DNA from: a virus
DNA length: 53,987 nt
IMG/VR virus record: IMGVR_UViG_3300043661_000153
Location: 1-53,987 of that record
Direction: 5' to 3' (one strand)
The notes under the pieces are model-generated. The model made no database searches. It worked only from the letters and a program-made list of their open reading frames with translations, and was not told the origin of the DNA. This document shows positions 6,364 through 18,668 of the stretch, one piece after another. Each line of letters opens with the position of its first letter. Position 1 is the stretch's first letter. The position numbers and the translations under genes were made by a program.

Positions 6364-6440
6364 GACATGCTCCCCTTGTCTGTGGTTGTTCAGCTAACAG
6401 TTGAGTGATAAGGTTGGTCGGGTTGAGTTGTGGGGGATTT

Positions 6441-7094
6441 ATGATCCGGAAAGCCTTGCAGGCTGCGGCTTTCGCCGCGTGCGTCAGCGGCTGCGCGGCC
6501 GCGCCGCAGATCACGGGTCGGGACGATTTCCTTAAAGAGGCGACGCGCACCTATCAGGGCGAGACGACGGAGCGCGTGATCCTGGCCGCGCAGCGCGTCT
6601 TGGACCAATCCGACCCGAAATATTTTGAGTTCCGCAACACGCTCAACGGCTTTTCCGGGCTGCGGCACTATCAGGTCTATGCCGTCGTGGCGTCGGCTAC
6701 CGGAAGCGATCGTTGGGATTTCACAGCCGAGCGCGAACCGGCCGGCATCAAGGCGGCCGTCACCATTACCGACGTTGGCGCCGCGCAGAACGGCTACACG
6801 CGGACGTCCTACGACGCGGCCATGACCAGCATTCCGCTGTTCCGACTGTTCTGGTCCCGCGTCGAGTACGTGCTGGGCCGCAGCGACAACTGGCAAACCT
6901 GCGACGATGCTGTGGTTCAGTTCTACGATACCAAGATCAGCGCGGACATCGCGCTCGGTGGCCTTTGCGGTCCGACAAGCCACGGCAGGGACAATGAGCC
7001 GCCGGAACGATTGCCGTCGCTGCTCAAGCAGCCTAGCGCTGGCGCGCCGGCTCCAAAGGCCGCAAGGGCCAAGGCGCAAACGAGCTCTAATTGA
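6441..7094 (+). CDS. Predicted lipoprotein (lysogenic conversion candidate)
   Basis: 217 residues. A type II signal peptide is visible (MIRKALQAAAFAACVSGCAA, lipobox VSGC), so the mature protein should be anchored to a membrane at Cys18. The mature part is beta-rich (YQVYAVVASATGSDRWDFTA) with Cys residues near the end and a Pro/Ala/Lys-rich tail. The start was chosen for its GGGGGA ribosome site. It is a single gene on the strand opposite both neighbouring operons and lies between PL and the PL operon, a typical place for a gene expressed in the lysogen. Surface exclusion or host fitness are possible roles; none is shown. Confidence 0.8.
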   Translation: MIRKALQAAAFAACVSGCAAAPQITGRDDFLKEATRTYQGETTERVILAAQRVLDQSDPKYFEFRNTLNGFSGLRHYQVYAVVASATGSDRWDFTAEREPAGIKAAVTITDVGAAQNGYTRTSYDAAMTSIPLFRLFWSRVEYVLGRSDNWQTCDDAVVQFYDTKISADIALGGLCGPTSHGRDNEPPERLPSLLKQPSAGAPAPKAARAKAQTSSN

Positions 7095-7133
7095 GGACTT
7101 TGAAAGCATGGGGCACCGATTAGGTTCCCCAGT

Positions 7134-7162
7134 TATCTAGGACAGTATGTCCTAACAGTCAA
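7134..7162 (-). promoter_or_regulatory. Predicted leftward early promoter PL
   Basis: On the minus strand a -35 box TTGACT (7157-7162) and a -10 box TAGATA (7134-7139) are separated by exactly 17 bases (7140-7156). One operator palindrome fills the spacer and the other abuts the -35 box, so repressor binding should block RNA polymerase. It would drive the operon 6363-1, crossing the lipoprotein gene in antisense. Confidence 0.65.
7139..7153. promoter_or_regulatory. Operator OL1-like palindrome
   Basis: AGGAC-AGTAT-GTCCT, a perfect inverted repeat with 5-bp arms (6-bp arms if flanking T and A are counted). It lies inside the PL spacer. One of four copies near the repressor gene. Confidence 0.75.
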
Positions 7163-7176
7163 GGACTATTTGTCCT
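7162..7176. promoter_or_regulatory. Operator OL2-like palindrome
   Basis: AGGAC-TATTT-GTCCT, a perfect inverted repeat whose centre is 23 bp from that of the 7139 site. It overlaps the upstream edge of the PL -35 box and the stop codon of the gene 7175-7465. Confidence 0.75.
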
Positions 7177-7465
7177 ATTCGCCCCAGCCTGGCTGCACAC
7201 GCGTCCGCTGGGTCTGAGGATTGACCCAAAGCCGGAACTGAGTGCCGTAAGGGAGCGGCCCGGGGCATGAAACCCGGTATTGGATGCCGTATTCATCAGT
7301 TTTGAAGGCGGCTACGAAGAGGGTGTGATCACAGTAGAAGCCGGCGCGGGTGATCGCGTCGACCACCTCCCGCAGCGCGGCTGGGTCCTTGATCTCGATA
7401 ATGTCGGCAGAAGCGGTGGCTACCGGAAGGCCTGCCAGCATTAAGGCGACGACCGTGCGGACCAT
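7175..7465 (-). CDS. Small secreted protein co-transcribed with repressor (96 aa)
   Basis: A signal peptide (MVRTVVALMLAGLPVATASA) is followed by a mature domain of about 76 residues with two Cys (FYCDHT and RVSCPG), which could form a disulphide in the periplasm. It starts five bases after the repressor stop, so it is probably made in the lysogen along with the repressor, as the rex genes are in lambda. Role unknown; superinfection exclusion is a reasonable guess. Its stop codon lies within an operator. Confidence 0.75.
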   Translation of the reverse strand: MVRTVVALMLAGLPVATASADIIEIKDPAALREVVDAITRAGFYCDHTLFVAAFKTDEYGIQYRVSCPGPLPYGTQFRLWVNPQTQRTRVQPGWGE

Positions 7466-7470
7466 GGCTA

Positions 7471-7770
7471 TTATGCCGCCTTTCGTGGCCTTTTCGGCGG
7501 CTCTGGTGGCCGAGACGGCCCCGGCAGGTCCGCCATCATCTTGCCGACGCCAGTGCACAGCCATTCGAGGCGAACGCCAGTGATCCGGCAAAAATCAAGG
7601 TAGAATCGCGGCGGCAGATAGCTGCGCGTTTCGTATTGCTTGTAGGTTCCCTGATCCAATTCGAGCAGCTCATACATCGGCCGTTGAGTGGAAAAGCGGC
7701 CCTCGCGGGCTTTTTTTACCCGCGCGATAAAGCGCTGTTTTTCCTCAGTTTCTGAAAGCTTTTCGGCCAT
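7471..7770 (-). CDS. Short XRE-type phage repressor
   Basis: 99 residues. The N-terminal region after MAEKLSETEEKQRFIARVKK carries a helix-turn-helix (STQRPMYELLELDQGTYKQY) followed by LPPRFYLDFCRITGVRLEWL and CTG, the hallmark of XRE/CI-like repressors. The C-terminus is a Pro/Arg-rich tail. There is no LexA-type peptidase domain, so RecA-stimulated self-cleavage is not expected. It is divergent from the Cro-like gene, and four operator palindromes flank the repressor operon. The start at 7770 was chosen because upstream in-frame sequence is antisense to the Cro-like gene. Confidence 0.85.
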   Translation of the reverse strand: MAEKLSETEEKQRFIARVKKAREGRFSTQRPMYELLELDQGTYKQYETRSYLPPRFYLDFCRITGVRLEWLCTGVGKMMADLPGPSRPPEPPKRPRKAA

Positions 7771-7805
7771 AGGGGCATTTTCGCCCACGAATGTTCCACA
7801 GTCAC

Positions 7806-7820
7806 AGGACAAGTTGTACT
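7806..7820. promoter_or_regulatory. Operator OR1-like palindrome
   Basis: AGGAC-AAGTT-GTACT, matching the AGGAC-N5-GTCCT consensus with one change. It lies just upstream of the PR -35 region, the same place that the 7162 site has relative to PL. Confidence 0.68.
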
Positions 7821-7848
7821 TGCCACTAAGGACGATTTGTCCTAAGGA
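7820..7848 (+). promoter_or_regulatory. Predicted rightward early promoter PR
   Basis: A TTGCCA box (7820-7825) and TAAGGA (7843-7848) are separated by 17 bases that contain an operator, which is the same geometry as PL. The -10 box is weak (only the first two bases match the consensus well). If correct, transcription would begin at or next to the ATG at 7856. Confidence 0.45.
7829..7843. promoter_or_regulatory. Operator OR2-like palindrome
   Basis: AGGAC-GATTT-GTCCT, a perfect inverted repeat with its centre 23 bp from the 7806 site. It fills the spacer of PR. Confidence 0.75.
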
Positions 7849-10540: not shown

Positions 10541-10887
10541 GTGCACTCGCCCATAAGCCGCGCGAGGATTACGAGCTCACCGACGTCGAGCGGATCGCAA
10601 CCGGCTTGATCGCATGCGTCGAGGGCCTGCGCGACAAACAAATCTCGCCGAAGGCCGCGCGCGTCAGCGCCGAAATGTTCTTGGCACAATTGGACACGGC
10701 ACCAATTCCGGTCACCGTGCTCTATGTGCCGACGCATTTGCTCGCCGATGTTTGCAAGCGATGGGCCGCCATCGGCTGCGATGTGCCGGAAGATTTTCTG
10801 ATCCTGCAGAAGTGGAAAAAGATCGCGCTCGATACCGTCGACCTCGTCCAAACAACGATGGCGCGTGAAGCAGGGAGGATGCCTTGA
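10537..10887 (+). CDS. Hypothetical protein (116 aa)
   Basis: Helical protein (YELTDVERIATGLIACVEGL, KAARVSAEMFLAQLDTAPIP, CKRWAAIGCDVPEDFLILQK). No domain recognised. It is coupled to both neighbours, ATGA upstream and TTGA downstream, and so is made with the ParB/MT-A70 methyltransferase. Confidence 0.75.
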   Translation: MSALAHKPREDYELTDVERIATGLIACVEGLRDKQISPKAARVSAEMFLAQLDTAPIPVTVLYVPTHLLADVCKRWAAIGCDVPEDFLILQKWKKIALDTVDLVQTTMAREAGRMP

Positions 10888-12245
10888 GCATTCAACCCGG
10901 CGGCATCTTACAGCCCGGCGCGCCGCTCTATGAGGCGCTGAAAGCCGCCTTCGCTGCCATGGCGCCAGGCGAGCCGCCTGCCGTGCCGCCCTGTCATCCG
11001 TTCGCCAACATCTTCCCGATGCTCGCGGCAGATGACAGGCGCGTGAGCTTTCGCGCCTCGCTTGCCGAAAAGCAGAATCATCCGGTTATTCTGCACAAGG
11101 GAATGCTGCTCGACGGCCGCAACCGCGCCCGCGAGCTCATCGAGTTTAACCTGCCGATCAGCTTCGCCGTCTTTGATGGAGGCGACAGGCAAGCCCTCGA
11201 TTTTGCCTGCGCAGAAAACTACGAACGGCGCGATCTCACCGACAAGCAGCGCGCGATGTGCGCCGCGCGGATCGCAACGCTCCGTGTCGGCGACAATCAA
11301 CACACGCGCAAGCCTACGCCAATTGGCGCACCCACGTTCGACCTCGGCGAAGGCGCACAGCCAGAGCCCGAGGCGGCTCCGATGCGTTCCATCGGCGAAG
11401 CGTCGGCGATGATGCACGCGCCGCGGCGCAGCGTCGATCGCGCCGCCGTCATCGAGGCAAAGGGAGCGCCCGAGCTAAAGGCTGCCGTCGAGACTGGGCC
11501 TATATCGCTCGCAGCAGGCGCCGAAATAGCGACGCTCCCCGTCGAGCAGCAGCAAAAAGTGCTGGCGATGAGCGAGAAAGAAATTCTCGCTGAGGCTGCA
11601 CGCATTCGCAAACTAAAAAACGACAAGCGCCGCGGCGAGCGCGTCGAAAAGCTCAAGCAAATCTCTGCGGGCAATTCGGCGCTGCCGACCGAGCGCAAGT
11701 TCCCGGTCCTTTACATGGACCCTCCGACAAAGTTCGCCGCCGGCGACAGCGACCGCTCGACAGAAAACCACTACCCGACCATGACCGAGGAAGAGCTGGC
11801 GAAGCTGCCGATCGGCGAGCTGGCAACCGATGACGCGGTCCTCTTCATCTGGACGACGGTTCCCTGGCTGCGCAAGACGATGGCGCTGATCGAAGCTTAT
11901 GGCTTCGAGTATGTGTCGGAATTGGCTTGGGACAAGGCAACTCTCGGTCTCGGCTTCTGGAATCGCAATTGCCATGAGTGCGTGCTCATCGCCACGCGCG
12001 GCAAGATGCCGGCGCCGGATCCTTCCGTGCTGCGACCATCGCTCTATCGCGAGGCAAAGGGCAAGCATTCCGCCAAGCCAAAATACTTCCGCGATCTGAT
12101 CACTGCTTACTATCCCGATCTTCCCAAGGTCGAACTGTTTGCTCGCGGTGAGCTTCCTGAGAATTGGTCTGCGTGGGGCAATCAAGCCAACGTCCCCGAA
12201 CAACAACAGCTCGGCATCGAGCCTGCGGAAGAGGCTGCGGCATGA
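10884..12245 (+). CDS. ParB-like nuclease/MT-A70 adenine methyltransferase fusion
   Basis: 453 residues. Residues 37-130 form a ParB/sulfiredoxin-like domain (HPFANIFPML, LLDGRNRARELIEF, ENYERRDLTDKQRAM). Residues 270-440 form an MT-A70 N6-adenine methyltransferase domain: FPVLYMDPPTKF, HYPTMTEEEL, AVLFIWTTVPWLRKT, CHECVLIATRGKMP and a KVELFARGELPENWSAWGNQ end. The usual catalytic DPPW reads DPPT here (279-282). The linker is Pro-rich and encodes PTPIGAP over a palindrome CGCCAATTGGCG. The start is a TTG overlapping the upstream stop. Likely role: methylating phage DNA against restriction, with the ParB domain perhaps aiding DNA recognition. Confidence 0.88.
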   Translation: MSIQPGGILQPGAPLYEALKAAFAAMAPGEPPAVPPCHPFANIFPMLAADDRRVSFRASLAEKQNHPVILHKGMLLDGRNRARELIEFNLPISFAVFDGGDRQALDFACAENYERRDLTDKQRAMCAARIATLRVGDNQHTRKPTPIGAPTFDLGEGAQPEPEAAPMRSIGEASAMMHAPRRSVDRAAVIEAKGAPELKAAVETGPISLAAGAEIATLPVEQQQKVLAMSEKEILAEAARIRKLKNDKRRGERVEKLKQISAGNSALPTERKFPVLYMDPPTKFAAGDSDRSTENHYPTMTEEELAKLPIGELATDDAVLFIWTTVPWLRKTMALIEAYGFEYVSELAWDKATLGLGFWNRNCHECVLIATRGKMPAPDPSVLRPSLYREAKGKHSAKPKYFRDLITAYYPDLPKVELFARGELPENWSAWGNQANVPEQQQLGIEPAEEAAA

Positions 12246-13584: not shown

Positions 13585-15681
13585 GTGAAAAGACCGCGCA
13601 AAATTCTTGTGGCCGACCTTCTTTGCGGCGCCGGCGGATCGTCGACCGGCTGCGCGCGCGCCTTGCGCGATCTCGGCCTCGAGATGGAACTGGTCTGTGT
13701 GAATCATTGGCCGGTCGCGATCGATACCCACACCCGCAACCATCCGGAAGCGCGGCATTACGTCCAGGACATCGCGACCGTGCGGCCGCACTTGATCGTG
13801 CCGGAAGGTTATCTCGATCTCTTGATGGCAAGTCCGACGTGCACGCATCACTCGGTTGCGCGCGGCGGCAAACCGACGTCGGATCAGCAACGCTCTGATC
13901 CCTGGCACATCATCACATGGCTCACCGAGCTGCGGGTCAAGCGCATCATCATCGAGAACGTGTGGGAGTTCTGCGGCTGGGGTCCGGTCGATCCGCGTAC
14001 TGGCAAACCGATCAAGGCTCGCAAGGGCGAATATTTCCGCGCCTGGATCGATACGTTGCGCCGGCTCGGCTTCGATCCGGAATGGCGCAAGCTAAACGCC
14101 GCCGACTTCGGCGATGCCACGACGCGCCAGCGCTTCATCCTGATGGCCCGCAGCGACCGGAGGACGGTCGCGTGGCCAGTCCCGACACACCGCAAGCGCG
14201 ACGCATGCAAGCTTGAATTCTTCCCCGGCGTGAAGCCCTGGCGGCCGGCGCGCGACATCATCGACTGGGAGATCAAGGGCAAGTCCATCTTCGGCCGCAA
14301 AAAGCCGCTGGCGCCGAAAACGCTGGCCCGGATTTATGCCGGCGCGGTCAAATTCAAATGGCCGGAGCCGTTCCTTGTCGTGCTGCGCAACCATATCGCC
14401 GTCGCCGCCGGCTTGATGCCAAAGCCTGCGGTGCCATGGATTGAGGAATTAGAGGTTGCCGGCCTTGTGCAGCCGTGCACTCCGGAATGGGAGGCGACGA
14501 AGCCTCCTCATCCGATCATCGTCAAACAGAATTTCCGCCGCGATACCCAGAGCGTTGACGATCCGGCGCCGACGATCATGACTGAAGCACGGATCGGCTT
14601 GGCGCAGCCGATCATCCTCGCCAATCGGAACAACAACGCTGCCAAGGGTACGGCGATCGATCCGACGCCGTGCCTGACGACGGCGCATGGCGGCGGCATC
14701 GCGATCGCGGAGCCCGTCATCGTCAATATGAAGGGCCAATCAACGGCAACGAGCGTCGATAGCCCGGTGCCCACGCAAACGTCGCACGCTGCGCATCTCT
14801 ATGTCGCTGAGGCCTTCGTCATGGCGACTGGAGCGGGCGCACCACGCGCCGCCGGTGAGCCGCTGCCGACCATCACCACAGGAGGCGCCGGCTCCGAAGA
14901 GCGCGAAGGCTGCGCGCGGCCGATGCTGGTCGAGCCGTTCATCCTCAATCGCCATGGTGAAGGGTACGGTGACACGCGCGCTCACTCGGTCGAAGACCCG
15001 GCACCGACGGCCAACTGCCGCGGCGCGGGATATCTCCTTGAGCCCTTCGTTCTCTCCCGCGAAGGCGGCGGCGCGCCGCGCTCCGTCGAAGACCCGACGC
15101 CTACACAAGTCGCCAAGCACAGCCATTGCCTGATCTCGCCCTACTACGGGTCGGGATCAGGGGAGACATGCCAGAGCGTCGTAAATCCATTGCCGACGGT
15201 CACGGCAAAAGCGCGGTTCGGCATCGTCGTCCCGATCACACATTCCGCCGACAACAGCAACCGCGCGCGCGACGTCGAGACTGATCCGATCCCGACATTG
15301 ACGACGGCGCATCGTGGCGAGCTTGCGTTCATCACGGCGCAGCATGGCGAGCGGCCAGGGCAATCTCCGCGCGTTCACGACATCGAACAGCCGGCGCCGA
15401 CGATCTGCGCCGAAGGCCATATCGATCTCGTTATTCCGACCGAACAATACGACATTCTGTTCCGCATGCTCGAGCCGCACGAACTCGCGGCCGCCATGGG
15501 CTTCAACAGCGACGAGGTAACCTACGTTTTCGCCGGCACGAAAACCGAGAAGATCAAACAAATCGGCAACGCGGTCTCGGTCGCGAAGATGAAAGCCTGC
15601 GTCGGCGCGATCATGGCCGATGCCGAGATGCCAGCGCATCAGCCTCCAGAATCCAGTCGCGCGGAAGAGGCGGCAGCATGA
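13585..15681 (+). CDS. C5 cytosine DNA methyltransferase with repeat domain
   Basis: 698 residues from a GTG start. Motif I is DLLCGAGGSSTG (12-23); the catalytic Cys86 sits in SPTCTHHS, a phage-type variant of the usual PCQ; ENV is 124-126; TTRQRFILM forms motif VIII. The C-terminal end has MLEPHELAAAMGF and IGNAVS (motif X). Between motif VIII and the end, residues 309-618 carry nine imperfect repeats of about 34 residues, each with a P-x-PT core. It would transfer a methyl group to cytosine C5 in DNA. Overlaps the next gene as ATGA, so it is made with the helicase-methyltransferase. Confidence 0.92.
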   Translation: MKRPRKILVADLLCGAGGSSTGCARALRDLGLEMELVCVNHWPVAIDTHTRNHPEARHYVQDIATVRPHLIVPEGYLDLLMASPTCTHHSVARGGKPTSDQQRSDPWHIITWLTELRVKRIIIENVWEFCGWGPVDPRTGKPIKARKGEYFRAWIDTLRRLGFDPEWRKLNAADFGDATTRQRFILMARSDRRTVAWPVPTHRKRDACKLEFFPGVKPWRPARDIIDWEIKGKSIFGRKKPLAPKTLARIYAGAVKFKWPEPFLVVLRNHIAVAAGLMPKPAVPWIEELEVAGLVQPCTPEWEATKPPHPIIVKQNFRRDTQSVDDPAPTIMTEARIGLAQPIILANRNNNAAKGTAIDPTPCLTTAHGGGIAIAEPVIVNMKGQSTATSVDSPVPTQTSHAAHLYVAEAFVMATGAGAPRAAGEPLPTITTGGAGSEEREGCARPMLVEPFILNRHGEGYGDTRAHSVEDPAPTANCRGAGYLLEPFVLSREGGGAPRSVEDPTPTQVAKHSHCLISPYYGSGSGETCQSVVNPLPTVTAKARFGIVVPITHSADNSNRARDVETDPIPTLTTAHRGELAFITAQHGERPGQSPRVHDIEQPAPTICAEGHIDLVIPTEQYDILFRMLEPHELAAAMGFNSDEVTYVFAGTKTEKIKQIGNAVSVAKMKACVGAIMADAEMPAHQPPESSRAEEAAA

Positions 15682-18668
15682 ACGCCCGCGCCGCCATAGC
15701 CCACGATCCCGATCCGATCCTCGCCGAGACGCTCGCGGCCTTCAAAGTGCGGGAAGTGTTCCCGAGCGGGCATGAGATCAGCCGCGAGAGCGACTGCGAT
15801 GAGCGCGGGCGCACTCTTGTTGTTGCCAGGTGCGAATGCGGAGCGGTCTTCAGACTTTTGTTGTCGCGTGAGGCTGAGCTTGATGCGCAGGTCGAGGCGC
15901 ATTGGCAGAGATTTGATAGCGTCGATGATCGCGGGCAGCCGGTGAGTGGGGGTGACTGCGCTGAATCAGGCGGCGCGCCGATCAAGCATGAACCATCCCT
16001 TCCTGAATCCCAAAACGCTGTGCCCCCCAGTGCAGCGCCAGAGCCCGCATGCGCGTCATCCGTTCATCCCCTCGGATTGCATGCGGGCTCGCTCATTTCC
16101 GACGATGACGATCTGCAGATCGAGTGGCCGTCCTACGAGGGCTTCCTCGAAGACAAGATCGTCACCGCGCCGCTCCGTGGCATCGAGGTCCCACGCGACA
16201 CGCTGCACCCCTGGCTCAAGCCGCACTGCAGGGATCTGGTGGTATGGGCGCTCCGGCTCGGCTGCGCTGCGATCTTCGCCAATTTCGGCCTTCATAAGAC
16301 GGCGATGCAATTGGAGTGGTGCCGGCAGCTTCACAAGCGGACCGGGCAGCCGACGCTCAGCGTGCTGCCGCTCGGCGTGCGCCACGGCTTCATCAAGGAA
16401 GCCCTGCAACTCGACATGGACGTGCGCTTTGTTCGGTCGACCGCAGACTTTCAGGCGCTCGCCGGCGAGGGCTTCCTTCACTTTCTCACCAACTATGAAT
16501 CCGTCCGCGACGGCAAGCTCGACCCTAATCTGTTCGGCGCCGTCTCGCTCGACGAGGCGAGCGTGCTTCGCAGCTACGGCTCGAAGACGTTTCAGGAATT
16601 CTTGCCGCTGTTCTCAAAGGTGCCATTCAAGCTGGTCGCGACCGCGACACCGTCGCCGAACCGCTACAAGGAGATGATCCACTATTCCGGCTTCCTTGGC
16701 GTCATGGATACCGGCCAAGCGCTGACGCGTTTCTTTCAGCGTGATTCAGAAAAGGCCGGCAACCTCACGCTTTACCCGCACAAGACTGAAGAATTCTGGA
16801 TGTGGGTGCATTCGTGGGCGGCGTTTTTGCAAAAACCGTCTGACTTGGGTTACAGCGATCTTGGATATGAGCTGCCTCCGCTCAAGGTCAAATGGCACGA
16901 GGTGCCGGCGGATCACTCCAAGGCCACGCCCGATCGCGACGGCCAGGGCGCGCTCTTCCGCAACGCGGCCGCGGGTCTCTCACAAGCCGCCTCGTCAAAG
17001 CGCGACAGCCTGCCGGCGCGCATTGTGTGCATGCAGGGCATCATCGAGCATGACCCCGAGCCGCACCGGATCATCTGGCACGACCTCGAAGCCGAGCGCG
17101 AGGCGATCGAGCAAGCCATTCCCGGCGTCGTCACCGTCACCGGGTCGCTTGATCTTGATGAGCGTGAAAAACGCCTCAACGAATTCGAGGAAGGCCGGAT
17201 CAAATATTTCGGCACCAAGCCGATCCTGTCTGGCTCCGGATCGAACTTTCAATATCACTGCCACAAGGCGATCTTCCTCGGCGTCGGCTACAAGTTCAAC
17301 GACTTTATCCAGGCCTGCTACCGCATTCAGCGCTTCGGCCAGGCCCACGAGGTCGAGCTCGACATCATCTATTCCGAAGACGAGCGCGACATCCGCGCCG
17401 CGCTGGAAAAGAAATGGGCGCAGGACAGCGAGATGCGCGCCCGCATGTCGGAGATCATCCGCAAGTATGGTCTCGACACGCTGCCGATGCGCGACGTGCT
17501 GGCCCGAACGATCGGCATCAAACGCGTCGAGGTGAGGGGCGACAAGTTCATCGCGATCAACAACGATGCTGTGGCCGAGTGCAGGACTTGGCCCGACAAT
17601 TCCGTCGATGAGATCGTGACGTCGATCCCGTTCTCCAATCACTACGAATATTCCGCAAGCTACAACGACTTTGGCCATACCGACGACAACGCCCACTTTT
17701 GGGGCCAGATGGATTTCCTGACGGCCGAGCTTTTTCGCATGCTCAAGCCCGGCCGGCTCGCCTGCATCCACGTCAAGGACCGGATCCTGTTCGGCGCGGT
17801 GACCGGCGAAGGCGTGCCGACGATCTCGCCATTCCACGCCGAAGCGATCATGCACTACCGCGCCCACGGATTCCAGTTCATGGGCATGATCACCATCAAC
17901 ACCGATGTGGTGCGGGAGAACAATCAAACCTATCGTCTCGGCTGGTCGGAGTGCTGCAAGGACGGCACCAAGATGGGCGTGGGCTCGCCCGAATACGTCT
18001 TGCTGATGCGCCGGCCGCAGTCCGACCGCTCGCGCGGCTACGCCGACGTGCCGGTTACAAAGGACAAGGAAACCTATACCCGCGCCCGCTGGCAGCTCGA
18101 CGCCCATGCGTTCTGGCCATCAAGCGGCAACCGGCTGCTCACGCCGGAAGAGTTCGCCGGCCTTGGTCCTAGCGAGCTGGCGCGCGTGTTCGGCAAAACA
18201 TCGGCAGAGCGCGTCTATGACTACGAGGCACACGTCACCATCGGCGAGAGTCTCGAGCGCAAGGGCTCGCTGCCGGCGACCTTCATGTGCTTCGCGCCAG
18301 GCGCGACCGATCCGAACACCTGGCACGATGTCAACCGCATGCGCACGCTCAACGGCGCACAGCATGCCGCGAACCGCGAGCTGCACATCTGCCCGCTGCA
18401 GTTCGATATCGTCGATCGGCTGATCGAACGCTATTCCAATCCGGGCGATCTGATCTTCGATCCGTTCGGCGGTCTCATGACCGTGCCCTACCGCGCAATC
18501 CTGAAAGGACGCCGCGGCGCCGCGACCGAGCTTGCGGCGCCGTATTTCCTCGACGGCGTGCGCTACCTGCAGATGGCCGAAGAGCAGGTCTCAACGCCGC
18601 AGCTATTCGACCTCGCAGCATTCGACGCTGCCAATACCCCCCCCCTCGGCGGACGTGATGGAGGTTGA
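15678..18668 (+). CDS. SF2 helicase/beta-class DNA methyltransferase fusion (DarB-like)
   Basis: 996 residues. Residues 150-600 are an SF2/SNF2-type helicase: degenerate Walker A FGLHKT (203-208), Walker B DEAS (292-295), ATATPSPNRY and motif VI QACYRIQRFGQ. Residues 620-970 are an N6/N4 methyltransferase of the beta class, with motif IV first (TSIPFSNHYEY, about 648) and motif I last (FDPFGGLMTVPYRA, about 927). The N-terminal 60 residues hold a CEC motif. A helicase joined to a methyltransferase recalls P1 DarB, an injected antirestriction protein, though this one is far shorter. Whether the helicase hydrolyses ATP is uncertain because the normal GKT is HKT. Confidence 0.87.
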   Translation: MNARAAIAHDPDPILAETLAAFKVREVFPSGHEISRESDCDERGRTLVVARCECGAVFRLLLSREAELDAQVEAHWQRFDSVDDRGQPVSGGDCAESGGAPIKHEPSLPESQNAVPPSAAPEPACASSVHPLGLHAGSLISDDDDLQIEWPSYEGFLEDKIVTAPLRGIEVPRDTLHPWLKPHCRDLVVWALRLGCAAIFANFGLHKTAMQLEWCRQLHKRTGQPTLSVLPLGVRHGFIKEALQLDMDVRFVRSTADFQALAGEGFLHFLTNYESVRDGKLDPNLFGAVSLDEASVLRSYGSKTFQEFLPLFSKVPFKLVATATPSPNRYKEMIHYSGFLGVMDTGQALTRFFQRDSEKAGNLTLYPHKTEEFWMWVHSWAAFLQKPSDLGYSDLGYELPPLKVKWHEVPADHSKATPDRDGQGALFRNAAAGLSQAASSKRDSLPARIVCMQGIIEHDPEPHRIIWHDLEAEREAIEQAIPGVVTVTGSLDLDEREKRLNEFEEGRIKYFGTKPILSGSGSNFQYHCHKAIFLGVGYKFNDFIQACYRIQRFGQAHEVELDIIYSEDERDIRAALEKKWAQDSEMRARMSEIIRKYGLDTLPMRDVLARTIGIKRVEVRGDKFIAINNDAVAECRTWPDNSVDEIVTSIPFSNHYEYSASYNDFGHTDDNAHFWGQMDFLTAELFRMLKPGRLACIHVKDRILFGAVTGEGVPTISPFHAEAIMHYRAHGFQFMGMITINTDVVRENNQTYRLGWSECCKDGTKMGVGSPEYVLLMRRPQSDRSRGYADVPVTKDKETYTRARWQLDAHAFWPSSGNRLLTPEEFAGLGPSELARVFGKTSAERVYDYEAHVTIGESLERKGSLPATFMCFAPGATDPNTWHDVNRMRTLNGAQHAANRELHICPLQFDIVDRLIERYSNPGDLIFDPFGGLMTVPYRAILKGRRGAATELAAPYFLDGVRYLQMAEEQVSTPQLFDLAAFDAANTPPLGGRDGG

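Follow-up and report, generated by a model that had tools for sequence, protein, structure and literature searches.

Paired palindromes and a predicted short 434-type repressor in a probable lambda-like immunity region of a temperate phage family

Results

Genes and sites of the switch region

The window (the whole stretch of DNA that was analyzed, 53,987 bases) has an integrase gene at its far left. In its putative immunity region, one pair of palindromic sites (OR) lies between a leftward gene for a predicted repressor and a rightward gene for a Cro-like protein, and a second pair (OL) lies on the other side of the repressor gene, beyond a further small leftward gene (Table 1). The predicted promoters PL and PR are mirror images that point outward, with the form TTGACT-N17-TAGATA leftward and TTGCCA-N17-TAAGGA rightward.

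Table 1. Features of the predicted switch region and its flanks; promoter elements and starts are predictions.
Feature	Positions	Strand	Remarks
Putative lipoprotein gene	6441-7094	+	Convergent on PL; not part of the switch core
Inverted repeat GGGGaACC..GGTgCCCC	7110-7130	-	Spans predicted PL start; counterpart of the family's Shine-Dalgarno-pairing arm
PL -10 box TAGATA	7134-7139	-	17-bp spacer from -35; position fixed by OL1; predicted start 7127
OL1 operator	7139-7153		AGGACAGTATGTCCT; exact AGGAC-N5-GTCCT; inside PL spacer
PL -35 box TTGACT	7157-7162	-	TTGAC at this position in 29/31 loci
OL2 operator	7162-7176		AGGACTATTTGTCCT; exact copy; its end is the first base of PL -35
96-aa protein	7175-7465	-	Apparent signal peptide; between repressor and OL
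Repressor, 99 aa	7471-7770	-	Predicted 434-type HTH and basic tail; PHROG repressor families; no cleavage domain
PRM -10 box GAAAAT	7777-7782	-	Family consensus CATAAT; predicted start 7770, the A of the repressor ATG
PRM -35 box GTGACT	7800-7805	-	Adjoins OR2; GAC core conserved at this position
OR2, weaker operator	7806-7820		AGGACAAGTTGTACT; one mismatch
PR -35 box TTGCCA	7820-7825	+	TTG at this position in 26/27 loci
OR1 operator	7829-7843		AGGACGATTTGTCCT; exact copy; inside PR spacer
PR -10 box TAAGGA	7843-7848	+	Predicted start 7855, one base ahead of cro ATG
Cro-like HTH protein, 77 aa	7856-8089	+	Conserved partner family A2

The site centers fall at 7146/7169 and 7813/7836, which places them 23 bp apart within each pair, with 667 bp between the pairs. 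The initial annotation had described four 15-bp copies of AGGAC-N5-GTCCT; the two pairs, their positions and the 23-bp center spacing stand, but only three of the sites are exact and the fourth, OR2, carries a single mismatch. No further exact copy exists anywhere in the 53,987-base window. The three exact sites compare with 0.015 expected per window in dinucleotide shuffles, and close pairs (sites with at most one mismatch within 40 bp of each other) were seen in none of 200 such shuffles. By itself, the number of sites with up to two mismatches (19 versus 15 expected) is unremarkable; the signal is carried by exactness, clustering and spacing rather than by this count.

The promoter geometry claimed at the outset, with one site of each pair filling a 17-base spacer and the other abutting the -35 box, holds with a refinement: the outer site overlaps the -35 and the inner site overlaps the -10 by one base each, the final T of the outer site doubling as the first base of the -35 and that of the inner site as the first base of the -10. 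A generic sigma-70 scan returned no promoter in the switch region, and both the PR -10 (TAAGGA) and PRM are poor sigma-70 matches; the assignment of the predicted promoters rests on comparative evidence. TA is present at the OR1 end, in the PR -10, in 25/25 loci profiled, and PRM in relatives is of the type nGAC-N17-CATAAT. Transcription starts were placed from the -10 boxes. In 23 of 27 loci the repressor ATG lies 36 bp from OR2, so that the predicted PRM start coincides with the A of this ATG and the center of OR2 falls at -43, and in 21 of 27 the cro ATG follows 12 bases past OR1. From these fixed distances to both start codons we predict repressor and cro transcripts with no leader or almost none, the PRM mRNA apparently being leaderless.

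A third palindrome, OR3, is located 34 bp past OR2 and over the PRM -10 in 16/27 loci. At the corresponding position the window has 5 mismatches, and OR3 seems to have been lost in this phage. What had been taken for a compact two-site version of OL/OR therefore looks like a reduced state of OR.

Relatives in viral contigs and genomes

A search for paired sites with the same spacing in related phages, which the initial annotation had called for, was made in viral contigs with the pair pattern alone and yielded 26 loci at 23 bp; with gaps of 0-30 bp allowed, 4 loci at 24 bp and 5 at other spacings were added. A homologue of the repressor (~100 aa) is found at 27 of the 30 loci with spacings of 23 bp (23/26) or 24 bp (4/4), and a Cro-like homologue at 26 of the 30 (22/26 and 4/4, respectively), while both are missing from all five loci with other spacings. 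Conversely, of 19 viral loci that protein similarity identified and the exact pair missed, 13 show a pair close to the consensus (0/460 in shuffled loci), three of these 13 being near-copies of one another; a recognizable pair was not found in the remaining 6, nor in any of the four genome-derived loci (L156-L159). Two of the latter, L156 and L157, are repressor homologues of one genome (G113), and their operators may have diverged.

The repressors of these relatives are 27-50% identical to that of the window, and the relatives are thus diverse phages. Over 31 oriented loci, OL1 has a mean of 0.03 mismatches, a perfection at OL that is partly due to selection by the search pattern, and OL2 is kept in all 31. 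In 27 loci, OR1 averages 0.04 mismatches versus 1.48 for OR2, whose consensus across relatives is aGGACAnntTGgcCT; OR2 is a conserved weaker site in the family.

In genome searches, the repressor family was present in 2/397 genomes of one order and 3/385 of its class, and the exact PL pattern in 1/398 genomes of the phylum, a genome that was already known; the pattern scan of genome contigs was dominated by unrelated repeat families. Named phages gave weak matches only to the repressor and none to the Cro-like protein, and there was no plasmid match. A separate array of about ten operator-like palindromes, spaced by 16, 21, 23 bp and larger distances, occurs at 10871-11143 of another viral contig (L028), with no member of the repressor family nearby.

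Repressor, Cro-like protein and neighboring genes

Searched against the PDB, the repressor family profile gave the 434 repressor (1per) as best match (E = 4.9e-6). The structural model (pLDDT 82) consists of five helices plus a basic tail that is disordered, and its structure search returned 434 Cro and repressor, 186 CI and C-proteins with high probability, though with E > 0.1. Scored as a single sequence, the repressor stays below the curated Pfam cut-offs and matches HTH families only. On the basis of its five-helix domain and its sequence similarity to 434 repressor, the protein is assigned to the predicted 434-type HTH proteins (HTH_XRE); a C-terminal autocleavage/oligomerization domain of S24 type is absent from its 99 residues. 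The Cro-like protein has weak Pfam matches to the YdaS, CI and Cro families and a helical model (pLDDT 87).

In lambda, rexAB occupies the slot between repressor and OL. In the window and in L004, L023 and L034 this position is taken by cargo genes for secreted or lipoprotein-like products, which are candidates for superinfection exclusion; the 96-aa protein of the window had no relatives among the loci fetched. Nor were relatives detected for the putative lipoprotein on the other side of OL. The codon-position GC of its gene (0.61/0.53/0.78) is gene-like; the minus-strand ORF 6390-7109, antisense to it (0.75/0.53/0.59), was considered as the first gene of PL and rejected on these values. As PL transcription would run antisense to it, the lipoprotein gene may be a lysogenic-conversion gene that is shut off on induction.

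The portal protein has its nearest matches in rhizobial, Azospirillum and Bradyrhizobium phages, which makes an alphaproteobacterial host likely. An SOS box (GTTC-N7-GTTC) for an antirepressor was sought in the window and not found. Elsewhere in the window, two adjacent large proteins (13585-15681 and 15678-18668, plus strand) have C5-cytosine and N6/N4 methylase domains, and a NADAR-domain protein (E = 1.1e-26) is encoded in the left region of the phage (4515-5039, minus strand).

The leader of PL

In relatives, a start codon with a Shine-Dalgarno follows almost directly after PL, and the PL bases from about -7 to +2 pair with the Shine-Dalgarno of their own phage more strongly than with that of others (own -10.8 versus swapped -7.6 kcal/mol, permutation p = 5e-5). 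This swap test was used because MAFFT did not align the leaders well enough for a covariance model; Rfam gave no match for the leader. The own-arm signal peaks at about -7..+2 (z = -8.8) and is gone downstream of +1. Among 11 protein-found loci the result was replicated (-10.8 own versus -6.8 swapped, p = 2e-4), although only partially, as two of them also belong to the first set and another has a leader near-identical to that of a first-set locus. The predicted unpaired state of the Shine-Dalgarno is 0.08 in read-through RNA versus 0.46 in PL-initiated RNA (28 loci, Wilcoxon p = 5e-8). In several relatives the repressor stop codon touches OL, and read-through from PRM is therefore to be expected unless repressor at OL blocks it.

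The corresponding repeat of the window has no Shine-Dalgarno. An earlier reading of it as a hairpin at the 5' end of the PL mRNA was revised, because the predicted start falls inside its 5' arm. Given the missing Shine-Dalgarno and a PL that faces the lipoprotein gene on the other strand, a gate of the kind proposed below may be vestigial in this phage.

Discussion

Site positions, gene content, conservation and base-pairing statistics, all obtained in silico, are the observations from which we infer the binder of the sites and the activation, repression and translation gating set out here. The region is very probably the immunity region of a temperate siphovirus-like phage, in which a short 434-type repressor on paired palindromes shuts PL and PR, and comparison of the loci indicates that such an OL/OR arrangement with outward promoters is family-wide. 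The 15-bp palindromes are most likely bound by a dimer of the repressor, which at OL would cover PL and at OR would cover PR, occupying the -35 and -10 boxes and the space between them; the lytic promoters would then be off in a lysogen. As OR2 is directly upstream of PRM (center at -43), repressor bound there could help RNA polymerase to make repressor mRNA, which is probably leaderless. In most relatives OR3, over the PRM -10, should limit PRM; this phage lacks it. Cro made from PR presumably opposes the repressor. The initial proposal of a lambda-like dual operator switch with a short repressor is thus borne out by the gene pair, the outward PL and PR and the paired sites, which recur together in dozens of viral contigs; that picture was incomplete in having no PRM, no lipoprotein gene convergent on PL and no leader complementarity.

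To this operator switch a translation gate that depends on the start site may be coupled. In relatives, the predicted leader hairpin has a 5' arm within which PL transcripts are expected to begin, and its 3' arm is the Shine-Dalgarno that belongs to the first left gene. RNA reading leftward out of the repressor gene should then not be translatable, whereas true PL mRNA would be translated. Lysogeny would then be leak-proof without a terminator between the repressor and the early genes, a proposal for which we judge the case evenly balanced. The complementarity suggests a second, RNA-level lock on lysogeny, and within the open-access papers searched we found no description of a lock of this kind.

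That the palindromes are there by chance around promoters has a vanishingly small probability: the window is indeed not enriched at two mismatches, but the exact count, clustering, spacing and conservation speak against it, and conservation already refutes it. The sites might primarily serve the Cro-like protein, or both proteins, rather than the repressor. Both genes are conserved together with the sites, and in lambda CI and Cro use the same operators; however, it is the repressor that is a predicted 434-type HTH protein, the regulatory domain of M.SsoII, which binds the same word, is also 434-like, and the placement of OL downstream of the repressor gene, away from cro, fits a repressor of both arms. 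We consider Cro as the main ligand improbable, though it may be a second ligand. Still less probable, to the point of being very doubtful, is that the phage captured the sites of a host or restriction-modification regulator of the M.SsoII or C-protein kind. The word AGGACAAATTGTCCT is identical in the SsoII/Ecl18kI promoter and the window encodes a C5 methyltransferase (13585-15681), yet no further exact site occurs in the window, the pairs are found together with the repressor and Cro genes, and M.Ecl18kI matches the repressor profile weakly, over 28 residues (11.7 bits) that exclude the recognition helix.

The fixed 23 bp, which resembles lambda operator spacing, could reflect cooperative repressor binding, with OL-OR looping closing the switch as in lambda, and the conservation of OR2 as a weaker site is as expected if it is filled by cooperation. 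However, the 23 bp equal the -35 to -10 register (6+17), since each hexamer starts with the last T of a site, and where the sites of OL are 24 bp apart the promoter spacer measures 18 bp; the spacing follows the promoter register and is alone no evidence of cooperativity, contrary to what had been argued from the shared geometry. Looping over about 667 bp likewise finds no positive support here, because OL-OR distances range from 356 to 869 bp across loci without helical phasing at 10.5 bp (Rayleigh p = 0.97). The repressor is without a C-terminal oligomerization domain. Cooperativity with looping is a tentative reading that we hold to be somewhat less probable than its negation. The leader repeat, in turn, could act in DNA as an operator, or as a transcription terminator, instead of hiding a ribosome-binding site as an RNA hairpin: it is symmetric, straddles the predicted PL start and, in the window, directly follows the lipoprotein gene at its 3' end. 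We regard this as unlikely, as 13/173 stem pairs are of G-U type, which RNA tolerates and by which a DNA palindrome is broken, in most loci a start codon comes soon after the 3' arm, which is a Shine-Dalgarno, no T-run follows the repeat, and the arms vary between phages yet match within each.

The repressor-operated switch proposed here would add a compact lambda-like system, with a short repressor and one operator word, from an uncharacterized phage family. Its promoter-locked 23-bp spacing is a caution against inferring cooperativity from spacing alone, and because OR3 is present in some members and absent from others, the family could be used to test which parts of lambda (cooperativity, looping, OR3) are dispensable.

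Comparison with lambda and other regulators

As in lambda, the repressor gene lies between OL and OR, PL and PR point outward and operators sit in the promoter spacers; divergent repressor and cro genes share multiple operators between them, and a second operator cluster accompanies the outward promoter beyond the repressor gene (31 loci). The likeness extends to OR2 upstream of PRM, to a third site over PRM in most relatives and to a predicted leaderless repressor mRNA, the -43 activator placement and leaderless cI mRNA being known from lambda. By contrast, the repressor here has ~100 aa and lacks the C-terminal oligomerization/cleavage domain by which lambda CI cooperates, the operators use one exact 15-bp word, OR2 and OR3 centers are 34 bp apart, cro is also predicted to be leaderless, and this phage, without OR3, does not have the three-site OR of lambda. 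The DNA-binding domain of phage 434 repressor is the best PDB profile match (1per) and has the same fold, but the protein here is short and stand-alone, and AGGAC-N5-GTCCT is not the 434 operator.

The same 15-bp palindrome, AGGACAAATTGTCCT, is the experimentally defined regulatory site of M.SsoII/M.Ecl18kI, where it is bound by two 434-like N-terminal domains (PMC3978073, PMC3695355), and the word is also on plasmid pECL18 (SsoII/Ecl18kI promoter). That a pair of 434-like domains binds this word makes binding by a 434-type dimer chemically plausible here, and C-protein structures also match the repressor model. However, the restriction-modification promoter has a single site and its regulatory domain is fused to a methyltransferase and has another recognition helix; the phage repressor has no such fusion and shares an 11.7-bit match only. 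Common ancestry of the operator with that of M.Ecl18kI is unsupported by so short a match, and with the M.Ecl18kI domain only distantly similar to the phage repressor, convergence of the operator word is the simpler reading.

Among temperate phages of alphaproteobacterial hosts, the rhizobial phage 16-3 has a C repressor that controls PL and PR (PMC3694467); a tblastn search of the phage collection did not return this repressor as a homologue. Gifsy-type repressors are likewise short and without a cleavage domain, implying induction by an antirepressor (PMC3121763); in the present phage RecA-driven cleavage is unlikely, and no antirepressor was identified. For the proposed gate the closest likeness is T4 gene e, where the ribosome-binding site is hidden in read-through RNA and exposed in transcripts that begin within the 5' arm (PMC3014915). 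Judged by sequence and predicted start, relatives of the window have the same arrangement, with the start inside the 5' arm and a 3' arm that is the ribosome-binding site, while the stem of the window lacks a Shine-Dalgarno. The two systems differ in what the gate would separate, which in T4 is early from late transcription in a lytic phage and here would be lysogenic read-through from lytic PL transcription.
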